Source: a virus. From it: DNA of 31,681 bases. Shown here in pieces: positions 9,524-31,424 of the stretch (the stretch's first letter is position 1; every line of letters starts with the position of its first letter). The position numbers and the translations under genes are program-made. The DNA lies in IMG/VR virus record IMGVR_UViG_3300032285_001938, positions 1 to 31,681 of that record; one strand, 5' to 3'. A model generated the notes under the pieces. It saw only the letters and a list, made by a program, of their open reading frames with translations, was not told where the DNA came from and ran no database searches.

Positions 9524-9824
9524 AAAGATTCAAAAGATTCACCAAAGTTTCACCAAAGATTCAGCATATTTTTTCATAGTACTTTGATTACCAATAAGTT
9601 ATGTTACAAAGTTTCAAAGATTCAAGATTTCATAGGAAAATATATAAAATTTCAAAGTTTCAAAGTTTCACCTATATATTATATATAATAATAATATAAA
9701 TAAATTAGTTCTATTATGTTTTTTGAATCTTTGAAACTTTCCTCTGAAACTCAAGCCCACACTACAAAGTAAAGATTCAGCAGGTGAATCTTTCGTGAAA
9801 CTTTTGAAACTTTGGTGAATCTTA
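9524..9824. repeat. Iteron array with AT-rich core; candidate replication origin
   Basis: Nine-base units AAAG(A/T)TTCA recur on the plus strand at 9524, 9533, 9544, 9555, 9608, 9616, 9654 and 9662 (variants at 9624 and 9646), often sharing a base with the next. After an AT-only stretch (about 9672-9707) the inverse complement TGAA(A/T)CTTT appears at 9724, 9732, 9785, 9796, 9805 and 9816 (last base varies), plus one direct copy at 9771. Some copies are extended by CC or GC. The array directly follows the primase-helicase gene and overlaps its last codons. Converging iterons round an AT-rich core are typical of initiator-bound origins; a multi-site operator is the alternative. Confidence 0.72.
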
Positions 9825-12107
9825 GTAGGTCTTTTCATAGCTACCCCTTGAAATTTGGCTGAATAGTTCTTTTTGGCGATTTATAAACGTTTTAACAGTA
9901 GCCTCCTTTATTCCGATACTTTCCCCTATCTCGATGGCTGTCTTCAATTTAAAGGCTTGTGGTAGTTTGCTATAAAGTAACTGCTGTGCAGGTAGCAATT
10001 TATCAACTGGGCTTTCAGGTGTGAGTATCTTCATGGCCTTTAGCATATTATCTAAAAAGTACTCAGTTAATCTAATGGATTTCTCCATCGCTCCTTGGGT
10101 AATCGTGCAATTTTCACGATAGTTGTAGTCCTCCATAACTTGGATAATAAGAGCAAACCTCAAACAATAGTTTTGATACTTGGCAATAATTCCCTTGATA
10201 TGATCAGATTGCGAGCTATCATATTTTTTATTTTTAGCATCGTGCCATGTTTTATATAGTTTGTTGGCTTGCTCATTCATGTAGTAAATATATTTCATGC
10301 CCTTACGCATCGCTAATAGGCCAAAAATGAAGTTTTTATATCCGTTTAGTATTTCATAAGGAATATTGATTTGCTGCCATTCTTGCTTATTCTGAGGCTG
10401 CGGATAAACAAATAGAAACCTATGGAAGAATCCGTTGTGTTCATTTTCGTTTGCTGAAAGTGTGGTAAGTACTCCAGGTTGAACACCTCCGACGATTGTA
10501 CAAAAAGGCTCATCGACTTTATCAATACCGCGCGATACCCTTTGTACAAGTAATGGCTCACCACTCCAAAGGGATAGCCACTTTTCAAGCTCATCGTTTG
10601 TATCGCTGTATTTATTCATTTTCTTAATAAAACCAATAAGCTCATCATTCAGAAGGCAACAACCATACTCATTCACTGCAAGAATCTTTGAAATCATCTC
10701 GATGGTACTGTCTCCAATAATTACCTGATAGTATGGCGGTGCTTCTGGTTCAGGTTCTGATTTATTTTTACTTGCTTTATAGTCTTGCAGTTCCTCTTTG
10801 TATCGTTCGAGTTCCAATTTATAATGCTTGTAACTTTCAGCATCATATTCCTGAAACGGATTGAATGCCTTATTTAGTGCAGGTGTTTTAGATGCCCCAG
10901 GAGGTGCAACAATGGCCATGTATAAAATAGGCTTAACGATGTATCCCTGCATTGCCTCCATCGTGCAAGTATTCCCTATGGCCGTAGAAACTGCTGCCAA
11001 AATACCACCGGCCAAATATTCATGCTGTATCACTTGTTTGCTAATAAATAATTGCAAAGCACTTGGGAAGATATCAAAAGGGAATTTTGAGCGGTCTTGT
11101 TTTGGTTGTTCTTGTTCAATCGGTTTGGTTATTTCAATATCGTTATGCTCACACAGAAATTTAATTGTTTCAATTGTAGTTATCCAATCTTGTTTTGATT
11201 TGTAATAAATGAATCTTGTGGGAGTAAGTATCCAGCTGTGATCGTCCGAACTTATACGACTGTGAAAATTTGGGAAGTCAGTAAAACTTCCACTCATAAT
11301 TAGTAGCTTTTTTACTTTACCAAAATAAACCTTTGCGGAATAATCAGCAAGTGAACCCTTGCGTAAATAGGCTGCATATTTTTTACGATTATATCTTGGG
11401 TTTTTTATAATATACAAATCGATGCTTTCAAGCAATTCATTAAATAGATCATCTGTACATGATAAATCAAATAACAGTGCAAGCTCTTCGTATTCTTTTG
11501 GATATTCAATTATAATCGAATCCCTATTTAATTCAATATCATCGTATTCATTAAAGTAAATACACGAAGCACAAAGCATATCGAACTCATCTTGAGTCAG
11601 TTCTTCGATATCTGTAAGTTCGTTATGTATTAATTCGTAACCTGGCGTTGGATAGCAAAAAGACAATAGGCCACCTGTATAGATGCTTATTACCTCTCTG
11701 TTTTCACTGCTCTTTGCAAGTGGTTTTTTATGTTCAACTTTGCTAAACTTAGAGTAAATATGATAACCTCCGTTCCTTGTTTTCTCTATACAAACTTTCC
11801 TTAGTACATCTTCGTTTGTACTTTTAACTATATTTAAGAACTGATTGAATAGTTCCTTATTTTCAGTATTCTTTAAATCAAAATCAAACATGAAATAGGG
11901 CGGCTTCATCCTTAATGCAAGGCCATTCATCTTATTCAAGTCCTGCATCCATCGGCTCACATCATTAATAGAATGATATTCTCCTTTATCTTCAATATCT
12001 GTTTTGTATTCAGGGAATTTCTCTACGTTCTTTTTATTTATATCCCAATCAACAGGCACAGGGTAAAGCCCCATTTCAAAAAGTTCTGATAGTACTTTGA
12101 TGTCCAT
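9822..12107 (-). CDS. Primase-polymerase/helicase replication protein (DUF3987-type)
   Basis: This 761-residue protein has an N-terminal prim-pol-like domain with the metal-binding MFDFDL motif (73-78) and KTRNGGYHIYSK (109-120). A central DUF3987-type helicase domain begins near FPSALQLFISKQVIQHEYLAGG (347-368) and has Walker A APPGASKT (401-408) and an LLNDEL Walker B-like motif. The C terminus (AIEIGESIGIKEATVKTFINRQKELF) looks like a winged helix-turn-helix. It probably primes and unwinds phage DNA and may bind the adjacent iterons. It is the last gene of the early operon and follows a structured leader. No phage DNA polymerase is visible, so elongation likely uses the host enzyme. Confidence 0.88.
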   Translation of the reverse strand: MDIKVLSELFEMGLYPVPVDWDINKKNVEKFPEYKTDIEDKGEYHSINDVSRWMQDLNKMNGLALRMKPPYFMFDFDLKNTENKELFNQFLNIVKSTNEDVLRKVCIEKTRNGGYHIYSKFSKVEHKKPLAKSSENREVISIYTGGLLSFCYPTPGYELIHNELTDIEELTQDEFDMLCASCIYFNEYDDIELNRDSIIIEYPKEYEELALLFDLSCTDDLFNELLESIDLYIIKNPRYNRKKYAAYLRKGSLADYSAKVYFGKVKKLLIMSGSFTDFPNFHSRISSDDHSWILTPTRFIYYKSKQDWITTIETIKFLCEHNDIEITKPIEQEQPKQDRSKFPFDIFPSALQLFISKQVIQHEYLAGGILAAVSTAIGNTCTMEAMQGYIVKPILYMAIVAPPGASKTPALNKAFNPFQEYDAESYKHYKLELERYKEELQDYKASKNKSEPEPEAPPYYQVIIGDSTIEMISKILAVNEYGCCLLNDELIGFIKKMNKYSDTNDELEKWLSLWSGEPLLVQRVSRGIDKVDEPFCTIVGGVQPGVLTTLSANENEHNGFFHRFLFVYPQPQNKQEWQQINIPYEILNGYKNFIFGLLAMRKGMKYIYYMNEQANKLYKTWHDAKNKKYDSSQSDHIKGIIAKYQNYCLRFALIIQVMEDYNYRENCTITQGAMEKSIRLTEYFLDNMLKAMKILTPESPVDKLLPAQQLLYSKLPQAFKLKTAIEIGESIGIKEATVKTFINRQKELFSQISRGSYEKTY

Positions 12108-12118
12108 TGTAATTAATT

Positions 12119-12224
12119 AAAAATCCCGAAGGTTGCCTCTGGTGGAATCGGATGCGCTTGCACCCTCAGAAGCCCCCTCCGGGAATTTCAATAAGTTTTA
12201 TTTATCGGGATTCCACCTCCGACA
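12119..12224 (-). promoter_or_regulatory. Structured leader A: kissing-loop/terminator element before the primase-helicase
   Basis: Minus strand, 5' to 3'. Hairpin 1 has a 6-bp stem (12224-12219 with 12208-12203) and loop AGGTGGAATC. Hairpin 2, AATAA-AAC-TTATT (12202-12190), abuts it. Hairpin 3 (12184-12124) has a 9-bp basal stem (TCCCGGAGG with CCTTCGGGA), an inner stem CTTCTG/CAGAGG and an apical GGGTGC-AAGC-GCATCC, then five T. GGTGGAATC in loop 1 is a perfect 9-nt complement of GATTCCACC (12149-12141) in hairpin 3. The start codon is 12 nt beyond the T-run. This suggests attenuation or translational gating. I do not recognise it as a known riboswitch. Confidence 0.7.
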
Positions 12225-12236
12225 GGGCAAAGTTAA

Positions 12237-14387
12237 TTAAAACAAGGTAGTTTGTTTTTTAGTTTCAACTATTGCTGCAAGATTCTTTTTTGCTTGGTCA
12301 AAATAAGATTCTTTAAGTTCAAATCCAATTCCTTTTCGGTTCATCTTTACAGCTTGAAATACCTCTGATCCAATACCCATAAATGGAGTGAGTACCGTGT
12401 CATTTTCGTTACTATACAAATGTATTGCTTTTTCAATTGTTGGAAGTTGCAAAGGACAAATATGCTTTTCATCGTTTTCATCCCTGCCATTCCTATATCC
12501 TTGCAAAGTATCACCGTAATCAATATCCATCCAAACAGGGGAAGCATATTTTTGCCATGTGTCTACATTTATTGTGCATTTCACTGGATCAGTTCTATCG
12601 CCATCTTTTCTAAATATTAATAGGTAGTCCGGTATTCCCACTCTGGACATCGTGCTGTCTTTTTTTACTTGTTTATGTAAAAGCCCAAGTGCTTTTGTTC
12701 TTTGCATTTCTACAACCGGATCTTTCCAAATTGTAACCCTTGAATGATAAATAAAACCAGCACTTTCGAATGCTTTTAAAATTAACCCACTAAAATCACG
12801 CAATCCAATAAAACCTTCTTTTCCTTTTTGTATGGGTAAGTCCATGCAATGTACTGCAACATTTCGGCCTTGTTTTATAACTCTGTACAATTCTTTAATA
12901 AGGAAATTAAATTGAGTTAGGAATTCATTGTAATCTTTGCTGTTACCCATATCTTCCAAATGTGATGAATAAGTATAAAGATCAGCGAAAGGAGGTGAAA
13001 AAATAGAGAAGCCAACAGTTTCATCTTGAACATCTTTAATCAACTGGATACAATCACCACGCTTTATATTGTAATATTCATTATCGACTTCATCAGTATT
13101 GTTAGTTGCTGATTTCAAAATAGTATTATTTAAATTCTGATTTACAGCTTTGCTCATTTCATCTTGCATAAGTTCAAATTGTTTTTGTTTGTTATCTATG
13201 CTTTGTTTTACGTTGGACATGGTATCGGTAGTAATCAAATAAATATTAACAGCTTGCTTTTGTCCAAATCTGTATGACCTTCTTATGGCCTGGTACAATC
13301 CCTCGAAACTGAAGTCTAAACTTGCAAATATTTGATTATTGCAATTTTGATAGTTAAGGCCAAATGAAGCTATTTTAGTTTTAGTAATCAATACCCTAAA
13401 TTGATTATTTGCGAATCCAAGCAGCATCTTTTCTTTGTATTCATTACTATCTGATCCTTTTACTTCAATTGCCTCAGGGATTAGTTTTTTTAATAACTCA
13501 CCTTCTTCATTTTGCTTTATCCATATAATAAAGTTATCGGTTGAGTTATTTACAATTTTCGCAACTTCATCGAGTCGCTCAATTTTAGTAAATCGAAGCT
13601 CTTGATTAAAGTTAGTCGCTGAAATTATAGCATCGTTGAATAAGAGGCCGTTATCTCGTTTTTTGGTTATTATTTGTTTTTCAATAAGATTCAATGATGG
13701 CAAATCGTAATCTTGCATCTGAAATCCAATATCGTTAGGCTTATTTAACATGATTGACCAGGTGCCAACAAATTGATAAAATAATTTTACAGCATGTCCT
13801 TTTAATCTCCACTTTGAGGTCTCACCGCCATCATGGACAAAATACATTGCAAGCATTTCATTGCGACCCATGACGTCTAAGAACTCGGCATGATTGCCAA
13901 GCTCCATAGGATCGTTAGGGGATGGAGTGGCTGTACAAGCTAATTTGTAAGGAGTCAATTTAAATAAGTCTATTATCTTCTTTTTAGTCTCACCTTCAAA
14001 ATTTTTCAATATAGAAGATTCATCCAAAACAATCCCTGAGTACTTTTGGCTTTCTATGTTATCTAACTGCTCATAATTGTTTATTTCTATGCCATCAATT
14101 GGAATCTTAAATTTAATAGCCTCGTTAATTGTTTGTCCTTTTACTGCTAAAGGTGCTAAAATCAAAATAGTCTTATTTGTATGCTTGTAAACTTGATGCG
14201 CCCATTCAAGTTGCATCAAAGTTTTCCCAAGTCCGCAATCAGCAAATATTGCATACTTTCCAGCCTTTAAGGCTCTTTTTACAATAAACTTTTGAAATTC
14301 AAATAAGTTAGGATTCAACTCACCGACATCGAATCCTGAATAAACATGAGCTTTCCGCTTACTTTCCAAAAATTGATTATAGTCCAT
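12237..14387 (-). CDS. SNF2/DEAD-type helicase fused to a DNA methyltransferase
   Basis: The chosen start MDYNQFLESK gives 716 residues; upstream codons would run through the leader's terminator hairpin. Residues 30-400 are a superfamily 2 helicase: CGLGKT (51-56), DESS (122-125), TATPSPND (152-159) and a motif VI-like QAIRRSYRFGQKQ (366-378). Residues 438-716 are a beta-type amino-methyltransferase with motif IV FSPPF (463-467) and, later in the chain, motif I TPFMGIGSE (667-675), the order found in N6-adenine or N4-cytosine enzymes. It may remodel and methylate phage DNA, protecting it from restriction or marking it for replication. The sequence specificity cannot be told. Confidence 0.88.
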   Translation of the reverse strand: MDYNQFLESKRKAHVYSGFDVGELNPNLFEFQKFIVKRALKAGKYAIFADCGLGKTLMQLEWAHQVYKHTNKTILILAPLAVKGQTINEAIKFKIPIDGIEINNYEQLDNIESQKYSGIVLDESSILKNFEGETKKKIIDLFKLTPYKLACTATPSPNDPMELGNHAEFLDVMGRNEMLAMYFVHDGGETSKWRLKGHAVKLFYQFVGTWSIMLNKPNDIGFQMQDYDLPSLNLIEKQIITKKRDNGLLFNDAIISATNFNQELRFTKIERLDEVAKIVNNSTDNFIIWIKQNEEGELLKKLIPEAIEVKGSDSNEYKEKMLLGFANNQFRVLITKTKIASFGLNYQNCNNQIFASLDFSFEGLYQAIRRSYRFGQKQAVNIYLITTDTMSNVKQSIDNKQKQFELMQDEMSKAVNQNLNNTILKSATNNTDEVDNEYYNIKRGDCIQLIKDVQDETVGFSIFSPPFADLYTYSSHLEDMGNSKDYNEFLTQFNFLIKELYRVIKQGRNVAVHCMDLPIQKGKEGFIGLRDFSGLILKAFESAGFIYHSRVTIWKDPVVEMQRTKALGLLHKQVKKDSTMSRVGIPDYLLIFRKDGDRTDPVKCTINVDTWQKYASPVWMDIDYGDTLQGYRNGRDENDEKHICPLQLPTIEKAIHLYSNENDTVLTPFMGIGSEVFQAVKMNRKGIGFELKESYFDQAKKNLAAIVETKKQTTLF

Positions 14388-14392
14388 AAAAT

Positions 14393-14479
14393 AAAAAATC
14401 CCCACCAGATGCGAGCTGATGGGGTTATTGCATGATGAATGCAAATAAAGTGCAACGGCTCGCATTCGTTGCTCTTTAT
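14393..14479 (-). promoter_or_regulatory. Structured leader B: kissing-loop/terminator element before the helicase-methyltransferase
   Basis: Minus strand. Hairpin 1 (14479-14445) has stem ATAAAG-A-GCAACG / CGTTGC-A-CTTTAT, twelve pairs with one A-A mismatch, and loop AATGCGAGC. Hairpin 2, TTGCAT-TCATC-ATGCAA (14444-14428), abuts it. After 3 nt, hairpin 3 (14424-14400) has 9-bp stem CCCCATCAG/CTGGTGGGG with one T-G pair and loop CTCGCAT, then six T (14398-14393). Loop 3 is the exact complement of ATGCGAG in loop 1 (8 nt counting the adjoining G-C). The start codon lies 5 nt after the T-run. The architecture matches leader A although the stem sequences differ. Confidence 0.75.
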
Positions 14480-14483
14480 CGTT

Positions 14484-14942
14484 TTACAAATTTACAACTT
14501 TATCATAAATCTCAAAGAAATCTTCAGGACTGACACAGAACTCATAAATACCGCCAGCTTTGCGTTCCCTTTGCTGCTCGAGTAACTGATGTTCGGATGG
14601 CCGGTCTTTACCTATTTTGATTTCAAGCATAACACTTCTGCCATTGATTGTTGCGCTAATATCCGCAGTTCCTTTCCTCGTAGTGCTTCGCATCCATTTC
14701 TTAGTACTAAGCACAGCACCTGATGCTGTCTTTTCCACGCTATCTACTAACCGGCCGCTTACATTAATCCTTGTCGCCCTGAATCCTTGCCATGTCAAAT
14801 AATTAATGATGAAAATAGTCAGTCCGTTTGCTTTCGCCACTACAGGCATCTTAGCAGGTGTGTAATGACCGTTTCTGTAAGCATTGGGATATTGCTCCTT
14901 AAAGTAGTTTTCATGCGCCTGTAGGTAGCGTTCTTTTGTCAT
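14484..14942 (-). CDS. VRR-NUC family nuclease
   Basis: With the ATG at 14942 (MTKERYLQAHENYF) the protein has about 152 residues. The C-terminal half has the VRR-NUC pattern: RKGTADISATINGRSVMLEIKIGKDRPSEHQLLEQQRERKAGG, in shorter form G-T-x-D-I, then E-I-K as the catalytic acid and lysine, and a Q-rich helix. The ending GGIYEFCVSPEDFFE is also typical. Such PD-(D/E)XK enzymes in phages act as Holliday junction or branched-DNA nucleases in replication and recombination. It overlaps the upstream gene by 32 nt and precedes leader B. Confidence 0.85.
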   Translation of the reverse strand: MTKERYLQAHENYFKEQYPNAYRNGHYTPAKMPVVAKANGLTIFIINYLTWQGFRATRINVSGRLVDSVEKTASGAVLSTKKWMRSTTRKGTADISATINGRSVMLEIKIGKDRPSEHQLLEQQRERKAGGIYEFCVSPEDFFEIYDKVVNL

Positions 14943-29697: not shown

Positions 29698-31424
29698 TAT
29701 ACAAATCTACTCCTCCGCGCGCTTGTTCGTTGCTGTTGTAAGTAAATATTTTCACCGCTCAAAATACCAGTTACAAAGATGTTTTTATTTCCGCCAACGA
29801 TGTTATCCAATTTAGATAATGGTATAACCGCCTCAGGACCTGCTTCACCGATTAAAGCGCGTGTTGGGCCGGTTACAATGCCACCGTCTGCGAATTTGAA
29901 GCCAGCAAGTTGTCCAAAAATACCGCTGAAATTTTTAGCGAATGAGGCGCCACCTGCGGCAGAACCTGGGAAAGCAACTGAAATAATAGCCGCAAATATT
30001 GCAGCTGTAACAGCGGCTGCAATTAATTTCTTTATTACACCTGCAATCGCTTGCCCAAAAGCTGACAAAGCATTTTTAGAACCTGAAAGTATATCTTCAA
30101 ATAAGTTAGTAAAAGCTGGGCTTAATGTATTGATTAATAAATCTGAATATTGTTTGAGTTTTTCTAAATTGAATAATTCCTTACCACTTTCAGCATTTTT
30201 TTGCAATTCTTTTCCAATATTAGCAATTGAATTTTTAGTATCAGCAAAAACATCTCTATTTGCAGCTAACCTATTGGTATATTCATCTAAAACATTTTGA
30301 GTAGCAAATGGGTCAATAAGCGAATTTCTCATTGCCTGCCCCATCTCAGTTAATGCAACTGTAGTGGCTTTAACTGTTTTTAGAATAAGAATACGACCTT
30401 CTGGCTTGTCCTCCTTATTTTTATCCTTGCTTTGTACTTTAAATTTTAAAGTTTCATCAACTGCTTTTCCCAGTTCAGTGCTTAGTTGATTATACCCATT
30501 TTGAAGGTCTGAAACAGATTTAATTTGTCCATCTATTTCACTTTTAACATTACCTAAATTATTTTGAAGTGCTTCAAGTTTCCCTCCAAATGCATTAGAA
30601 GTAATACCTGTTCCACTTGCACCAACTACGTTAAGTTTAGATTGAGACTTTTCAACATCTGCTATTTGTTTTTGATAACTATCATATAATAACAGATTCT
30701 TTTCAAGTGCTGCTCTTTGCTTAGTTAACTCAATTGCTGTTTTTCCTATTTCTTCTTTAAACCCTTTTACAACAGCTTCAGCAATCAATGATTTTGTTAA
30801 TTCATCAACCGCCTTTGTTAAACCAATAACCTCTCCTTTTTCAATCTTTAAATCTTTGAAATAGGTTTCATTAATTTTCTTAAGCCTAGTTAGAGCATTA
30901 ACCCTTTGTTCGTAAGGTAAATTTGAGTTATTAACTGCTTTAGCAAGTGCAGTTATTTCTTCAATTTGTGATTGAGTGGAAGATTGAGCATTGAGATAAA
31001 TTTCATTTATCTTCTTTTGCGTTTCAGCTTGTTGGTTAGTCTTACTTAATAGTGCATCAATTGCATTTCCTAAACTCCCATACTTCTGTATTGCAGTTGT
31101 AACAAGCGCAGAAACCACACTGAAACCCACCGCAATACCGGCCGGCCCTGCAAGCGATGAGCCTAAAGCCTTTAAGGCACCACCTACGGAACCAGTCTCT
31201 TTTTGCAGCTGCCCAAACGAACTTAACAGCGGATCTAAGTTATTCTGAATTGCAATAAATCCAAAGGGAGCATCCGAAGCTACACGTGATAGATTGGTGA
31301 GGGCATATTGAGCTTTGCCACTCGCTTGATTAATCTGTGTAAGAGATTTCACTGCGGAATTCGTAGCCTTATCAAGGCCTGAGGCATCCGCGTTAATAAT
31401 TAATTTTATTTCATTATCAGCCAT
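29697..31424 (-). CDS. Tape measure protein
   Basis: The 575-residue protein starts MADNEIKLIINADASGLDKATNSAVKSLT, the usual tape measure opening, then long helices, a first hydrophobic stretch (LAGPAGIAVGFSVVSALVTTAI), charged coiled coils and a second hydrophobic region near the C terminus (IAGVIKKLIAAAVTAAIFAAIISVA). It ends with GGIVTGPTRALIGEAGPEAVIPLSKLD, a very common tape measure ending. It sets tail length; from the common rule of about 0.15 nm per residue the tail should be some 85 nm long. It overlaps the chaperone extension by 8 nt. Confidence 0.93.
   Translation of the reverse strand: MADNEIKLIINADASGLDKATNSAVKSLTQINQASGKAQYALTNLSRVASDAPFGFIAIQNNLDPLLSSFGQLQKETGSVGGALKALGSSLAGPAGIAVGFSVVSALVTTAIQKYGSLGNAIDALLSKTNQQAETQKKINEIYLNAQSSTQSQIEEITALAKAVNNSNLPYEQRVNALTRLKKINETYFKDLKIEKGEVIGLTKAVDELTKSLIAEAVVKGFKEEIGKTAIELTKQRAALEKNLLLYDSYQKQIADVEKSQSKLNVVGASGTGITSNAFGGKLEALQNNLGNVKSEIDGQIKSVSDLQNGYNQLSTELGKAVDETLKFKVQSKDKNKEDKPEGRILILKTVKATTVALTEMGQAMRNSLIDPFATQNVLDEYTNRLAANRDVFADTKNSIANIGKELQKNAESGKELFNLEKLKQYSDLLINTLSPAFTNLFEDILSGSKNALSAFGQAIAGVIKKLIAAAVTAAIFAAIISVAFPGSAAGGASFAKNFSGIFGQLAGFKFADGGIVTGPTRALIGEAGPEAVIPLSKLDNIVGGNKNIFVTGILSGENIYLQQQRTSARRSRFV

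Follow-up and report, generated by a model that had tools for sequence, protein, structure and literature searches.

Leader A, an element on the minus strand (12118–12225) directly in front of a phage primase-helicase gene, is on balance probably a promoter-proximal transcription attenuator in which the terminator is built into a pseudoknot, so that the primase-helicase would be expressed through read-through. The window analysed is an entire IMG/VR record of 31.7 kb. Its minus strand carries tailed-phage genes for a terminase, portal, capsid, a DUF3987 primase-helicase (761 aa; 9822–12107, ATG at 12107), which follows leader A on the same strand, and a helicase-N6/N4 DNA methyltransferase fusion (716 aa; 12237–14387, ATG at 14387), which follows a second leader, leader B. 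TAnnTTTG is the consensus of the −7 element of Bacteroidota promoters (PMC10309648). We infer a Bacteroidota host for the window phage, because Flavobacterium phages are among the relatives of the fusion and the promoters belong to the TAnnTTTG type.

Read along the minus strand, leader A consists of a promoter, hairpin 1, an A/U-rich linker, hairpin 3, a U-run and the ATG. The promoter −7 element TAACTTTG (12228–12235) fits the TAnnTTTG consensus and lies 3 nt upstream of hairpin 1 (12203–12224), in which the stem P1 (TGTCGG/CCGATA), conserved family-wide, closes the loop AGGTGGAATC (12209–12218). Hairpin 3 (12124–12184), identified by its fold and by a covariance model match (R2, below), contains the terminator stem P2 (12176–12184 with 12124–12132) followed by an internal loop GG/AA, P3 (12167–12173 with 12135–12141) and the apical hairpin P4 (12150–12165). 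The U-run TTTTTAATT (12115–12123) is directly 3′ of this G+C-rich stem, as in an intrinsic terminator, and the terminator ends 16 nt before the primase-helicase ATG. Three stacked stems, a T-run and a nearby start codon had already been proposed in a sequence-only reading of this DNA and are borne out by the fold and the sequence. Confirming another of its claims, that of a perfect 9-nt complement between loop 1 and hairpin 3, the loop-1 strand GGTGGAATC (12209–12217) is complementary at 9/9 positions to the partner strand GATTCCACC (12141–12149), located within hairpin 3 where a bulge separates stems 3 and 4. As the last C of the partner strand can also pair in stem 3, 8–9 bp are available for the loop pairing. 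The fold of leader A is better than that of dinucleotide shuffles (z −4.5 to −4.9), none of 200 being as good, while a plus-strand reading was rejected because the plus-strand fold of 12100–12240 is no better than shuffles. Hairpins 1 and 3 of the proposed hairpin plan thus stand, but its hairpin 2 (AATAA-AAC-TTATT) is weak and absent from the minimum-energy fold; the stretch in question, AATAAAACTTATTGAAAT (12185–12202), resembles the A/U-rich, G-poor linker of the family described below.

Leader B, also on the minus strand, comprises a promoter element TAAATTTG (14487–14494), hairpin 1 (14452–14472) with the loop strand ATGCGAGC (14458–14465), hairpin 2 (14428–14444), and the terminator hairpin 3 (14400–14424) with the loop strand GCTCGCAT (14409–14416), followed by a U-run (14388–14399). 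Its two loop strands are complementary at 8/8 positions and, unlike leader A, it has a real hairpin 2. Leaders A and B are members of two sub-types of one family, and a putative co-regulation of the genes behind them is plausible.

Loop complements of this length are rare by chance. When hairpin 3 of leader A was shuffled, a loop 1 complement of at least 9 nt arose in 28/20,000 shuffles (~0.14%), and the 8-nt loop complement of leader B in 26/20,000, which answers the concern that shuffled sequences might give equal complementarity at similar rates. Among 28 promoter-terminator-ATG units selected blind to loop sequences, 25 had a complement of at least 6 nt between their own loop 1 and hairpin 3, compared with 19% for swapped partners; the highest count in 100,000 permutations was 15. 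An early unrestricted scan without promoter or ATG, requiring a kissing complement of at least 7 nt, gave 32 real elements versus 17 per shuffle and was too noisy alone. A blind scan of 1.42 Mb, which required nothing beyond hairpins 1 and 3 and a complement of 7 nt or more between them, returned 74 elements versus 32 per shuffle, and the excess lay in elements bearing a U-run (at least 6 T in 8 nt; 28 versus 2 per shuffle). An ATG lay 8–22 nt downstream in 26 of these 28 U-run-bearing elements, and TAnnTTTG lay 3–20 nt 5′ of hairpin 1 in 20/28 with no promoter criterion having been applied (1 per shuffle set). No elements were found in two AT-rich Firmicutes control phages.

Filtering for a promoter, hairpin 1, a loop complement of at least 6 nt, a terminator and an ATG yielded 57 distinct elements from IMG/VR, or about 48 non-redundant ones once near-duplicates were removed. 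We define the family by a promoter, P1, a loop complement, a terminator hairpin, a U-run and an ATG within ~25 nt, all of which are present in leaders A and B. The same plan occurs with unrelated sequences upstream of homologous fusions, primases and other genes on the same contigs; the genes behind the elements include those for the fusion, for primases and for endonucleases of the HNH and GIY-YIG kinds, as well as other genes of the replication region and small unknown ORFs, the GIY-YIG and initiator-like labels being our reading of the sequences rather than profile matches. Sequence comparison establishes where the promoter lies, that the fold and its pseudoknot are conserved, that there is a terminator with a U-run, and that the ATG follows at a fixed distance (5–24 nt from the P2 end, median 11).

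Members of type I, which includes leader A, have a P1 of ~6 bp, a loop of 6–11 nt, a linker (median 16 nt), P2 and an apical P3/P4; their partner strand occupies either the apical loop or a position on the 3′ side. Several of them carry a purine internal loop in P2 (GG or GGA versus AA or GAA), and GGGGA and AAC are near-invariant in a short group. In type II, which includes leader B, a real hairpin 2 replaces the linker, and the terminator is a plain hairpin whose loop is the partner strand. The hairpin 2 stretch is an unpaired A/U-rich linker in most relatives; over all linkers the composition is 44% A, 36% U, 14% C and 6% G. The idea that the linker is a spacer scaling with helix length was dropped, there being no correlation in elements without hairpin 2 (rho ~0, p 0.88). 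Type I linkers, including that of the window at 12185–12202 (−), contain a recurrent AACATTTA / AACTTTAA motif that is loosely like the −7 element TAnnTTTG; by analogy with what has been suggested for putL, this motif could be a candidate sigma-dependent pause site.

Several individual loci are worth recording. A leader very like A, with an 8-nt loop complement and an altered P1, lies before a 104-aa ORF at L082:2219–2350 (+), and a 97% identical primase begins ~1 kb beyond this leader and ORF, which suggests that the leader stays with the promoter and not with the gene. Elements are found directly before free-standing HNH/GIY-YIG endonuclease genes at L084:13263–13394, L170:12850–12978 and in L004, L060, L052, L040 and L008; such genes may have spread with these leaders or captured them. 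A different conserved leader, GAGTAATGGATACAATCGGAGGTTAAAGTGTGTGCGAGATTCATGCAG, which does not belong to the family, is directly upstream of the helicase-methyltransferase gene in L012–L022, L028, L038 and L041.

The element is also present in six of eight cultured Bacteroidota phages checked. Convincing examples precede the ORFs at 35995 and 40457 of Flavobacterium phage FCV-1 and those at 12978 and 14068 of Flavobacterium phage vB_FspS_snork9-1, and occur in Flavobacterium phage 11b (33738), Cellulophaga phage phi19:1 (10495), Polaribacter phage P12002L (34375) and, twice, in Riemerella phage RAP44; none was convincing in phages 6H and phi39:1. The genes behind the two snork9-1 leaders are gp040 and gp043, and that behind the phi19:1 leader is gp030. 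When a score cut-off was applied, the eight genomes gave 8 matches versus 1.7 per shuffle. Behind the FCV-1, snork9-1 and phi19:1 leaders no homology was found, either for the small ORFs or for the proteins that follow, and we therefore do not call these genes orthologous. Together, the cultured phages and the IMG/VR elements supply the further examples in related genomes for which the sequence-only reading had called.

The loop-1 pairing covaries across the family, as judged from sequence alignments. Pair counting in tool-made alignments revealed compensatory changes in the pseudoknot at two pairs in alignment A5 and one in A6; two such pairs distinguish L127/L131, and one distinguishes L106/L006 from the L122/L116 group. 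None of 500 shuffles reached the covariation score of the A5 and A6 alignments, which are small (6 and 4 sequences). Similarly, altered loops are matched by altered partners in L010/L088 and L007/L086. A covariance model built from four elements without pseudoknot information (R1) detected new members, including L117, in which the loop complement is GCGGCCAC/GTGGCCGC, and FCV-1, and those inspected carry a 5–8 nt pseudoknot complement. A second model (R2), trained without the window sequence, detected leader A (E 0.011). Searches of bacterial chromosomes with R2 found none in 297 and 41 genomes, a weak result since few candidates were scored per genome. The covariation and the swapped-partner tests uphold the earlier proposal that shape and loop complementarity, rather than sequence, are conserved.

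To establish which segments pair, we compared own with swapped pairing energies in the 48 non-redundant elements. Specificity for the own partner was confined to P1, P2 and loop 1 with the apical part (each p < 0.0002). There was no conserved alternative pairing between P1b and P2b (p 0.11) or P1b and P2a (p 0.64), nor any specific pairing between the linker and P2 (p above 0.4), and neither the P1 strands nor the linker were specific for P2 or the initiation region. Pairing with the initiation region (TIR) was likewise unspecific for loop 1 (L1 × TIR, p 0.99) and the apex (apex × TIR, p 0.16). Loop 1 with the P2 3′ strand was borderline (p 0.018), possibly through spill-over from the adjoining partner strand. 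Since P1, P2 and the loop pairing alone are specific, the family keeps one pseudoknotted fold rather than two competing folds, and the absence of a conserved antiterminator fold makes a classic two-state attenuator unlikely. The exclusive on/off switch that had been proposed between AATCCCG of hairpin 1 and CGGGATT of hairpin 3 falls with this result: the match is present in leader A but is not conserved in the family.

These features suggest how an attenuator of this kind could work. The position of TAnnTTTG 3–20 nt upstream of hairpin 1 (20/28) points to an RNA start at or near hairpin 1, and a promoter downstream of the terminator is unlikely because only ~11 nt (median) separate P2 from the ATG; the conserved U-run and this lack of room argue for an attenuator at the transcript start. 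Leader A would then be the 5′ end of the primase-helicase mRNA, made from its own promoter (12228–12235). Hairpin 1, at or near the RNA 5′ end, would fold first; the emerging partner strand would pair with loop 1, and P2 would presumably close afterwards, followed by the U-run. The product would be a compact pseudoknot whose closing helix doubles as an intrinsic terminator. The majority of transcripts would end ~10 nt before the ATG as a structured RNA of ~105 nt, and the primase-helicase would be expressed through read-through, at a level set by pseudoknot formation or by a factor recognising the pseudoknot. Loop pairing and closure of the terminator stem are not in competition, so how the former would affect termination is not obvious; a pseudoknot that forms before P2 closes may adjust the efficiency of the terminator or offer a surface to a factor. 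We infer termination in vivo, regulated read-through and the role of the pseudoknot as control point from this arrangement.

A few leaders have an additional feature. Riemerella phage RAP44 (L173, NC_019490) carries paralogous leaders at ~13700–13890 (+) and ~30400–30590 (−) with the 13-nt loop complements TTAATCCAAGTGC and TGTTAAACCATCG, and in both the loop-1 sequence recurs at the start codon of the following ORF (ATGTTAATCCAAG, ATGTTAAACCATC), with an antirepressor gene next. By analogy, these leaders resemble the P1 c4-icd-ant layout, as loop 1 and the start region are alternative pairing sites for the partner strand. At L040:2614–2762 (+), which has an 11-nt loop complement, the loop-1 sequence ACAACGAC recurs just before the ATG as in RAP44, and this element is possibly a translational sub-type of the family. 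Complementarity to the initiation region of the following gene, found in both RAP44 copies and partly in L040, is absent in leaders A and B and in the family overall, and the idea that loop 1 generally copies the start region of the gene was rejected.

The tight ATG spacing also fits a translational role, in which a pseudoknot ~11 nt from the start codon, possibly bound by a phage protein, would hinder or position the ribosome, and the terminator-like appearance would be secondary. We regard this as unlikely. The narrow distance from P2 to the ATG speaks for it, as does the loop-1 copy in RAP44 and L040, through which the partner strand could pair with the start region too; however, essentially all members have a U-run, which translation does not need, and outside RAP44 and L040 no leader segment prefers its own initiation region over swapped ones. 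That the hairpins are ordinary intrinsic terminators with chance loop matches is scarcely credible: terminator hairpins are common near genes and single 7-nt matches were seen in shuffles, but the permutation test, the blind scan, the covariation and the independent discovery by covariance model contradict it, as do the empty Firmicutes controls.

Two further explanations draw on known phage RNAs. An antitermination RNA that, like HK022 putRNA, binds RNA polymerase and carries it past its own and later terminators would account for the placement of the leader just past the promoter, as in putL, for its ~100 nt and for its compact multi-hairpin fold before early or replication genes. We nevertheless think it quite improbable, given that put has neither a built-in terminator nor loop-loop pairing (PMC9378689), that Rfam gave no match and that leader B has no conserved sequence core. 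There is also a slim chance that the terminated leader acts in trans as an antisense or immunity RNA similar to P1 c4 or P4 CI RNA, its target being either its own nascent copies or the start of the gene. Loop and partner sequences that change fast yet stay complementary would be expected of antisense specificity systems, and in the RAP44 leaders, which precede antirepressor genes, one strand is complementary to the start of the following ORF. Against this, the loop and partner 9-mers of leader A have no other occurrence within the window, start-region matches are lacking in A, B and most members, and the Rfam search gave no C4 match.

Attenuation by a pseudoknotted terminator at the transcript start thus remains our preferred reading. 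As a more tentative extension, which we hold to be possible rather than probable, the leaders might form a phage-wide regulon of self-locking terminators, each loop 1 being the private key to its own terminator, with joint release by one phage or host factor or by pseudoknot folding kinetics and no competing antiterminator fold; if true, this would be a new mode of transcription attenuation across Bacteroidota phages. The pseudoknotted terminator leader looks like a widespread, apparently undescribed gene-control element, because dozens of Bacteroidota phages carry the same layout in different letters. Searches of the open-access literature turned up no account of a leader of this kind, though that does not prove it new. 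With Rfam 15, at gathering and E-value thresholds, no family matched the window, and only chance-level matches were obtained for the window region and 8 loci; the family escapes Rfam and ordinary alignment because its members have almost no primary sequence in common. Bacteroidota phages are dominant in gut and aquatic viromes, and the timing of their gene expression is poorly understood. A leader class whose sequence makes it recognisable in cultured as well as metagenomic phages, and which precedes genes for primases, helicase-methyltransferases and homing endonucleases along with others of the replication region, offers a directly testable way into this question. The terminator design would be unusual in combining a loop-terminator pseudoknot and copy-specific complementary loops with no conserved antiterminator.

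Among known systems, HK022 putL/putR are similar in being short structured RNAs just past a phage promoter and before early genes. The put element is made up of two stem-loops and lacks both a terminator and loop-loop pairing (PMC9378689), whereas here the second hairpin is a terminator that pairs with loop 1, and copies precede many separate genes. Classic attenuators and riboswitches share with the leaders a 5′ position and an intrinsic terminator shortly before the gene, but the leaders have a private loop-terminator pseudoknot instead of a conserved exclusive antiterminator pairing, and a loop-borne ligand pocket is not expected because the loop sequences are not conserved. The P1 c4 and P4 CI leader antisense RNAs are phage leader RNAs with loop complementarity, and the RAP44 copies are like them in preceding antirepressor operons and matching the start codon region; in leader A and most members, however, the complement is inside the leader itself and not at the gene start. 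In the pistol ribozyme, the loop of hairpin 1 forms a pseudoknot with a strand within the second helix, and there is an A-rich joining strand, both of which recall the leaders. No pistol match was obtained with cmscan in E-value mode; the leaders lack the pistol core, their partner strand lies on the 3′ side or in the apical loop, and their outer helix is a terminator with a U-run. The T4 gene 32 mRNA likewise has a pseudoknot upstream of the start codon in the leader of a phage replication gene, but it has no terminator and serves autogenous control of a single gene, while the leaders described here carry a terminator and precede unrelated genes.
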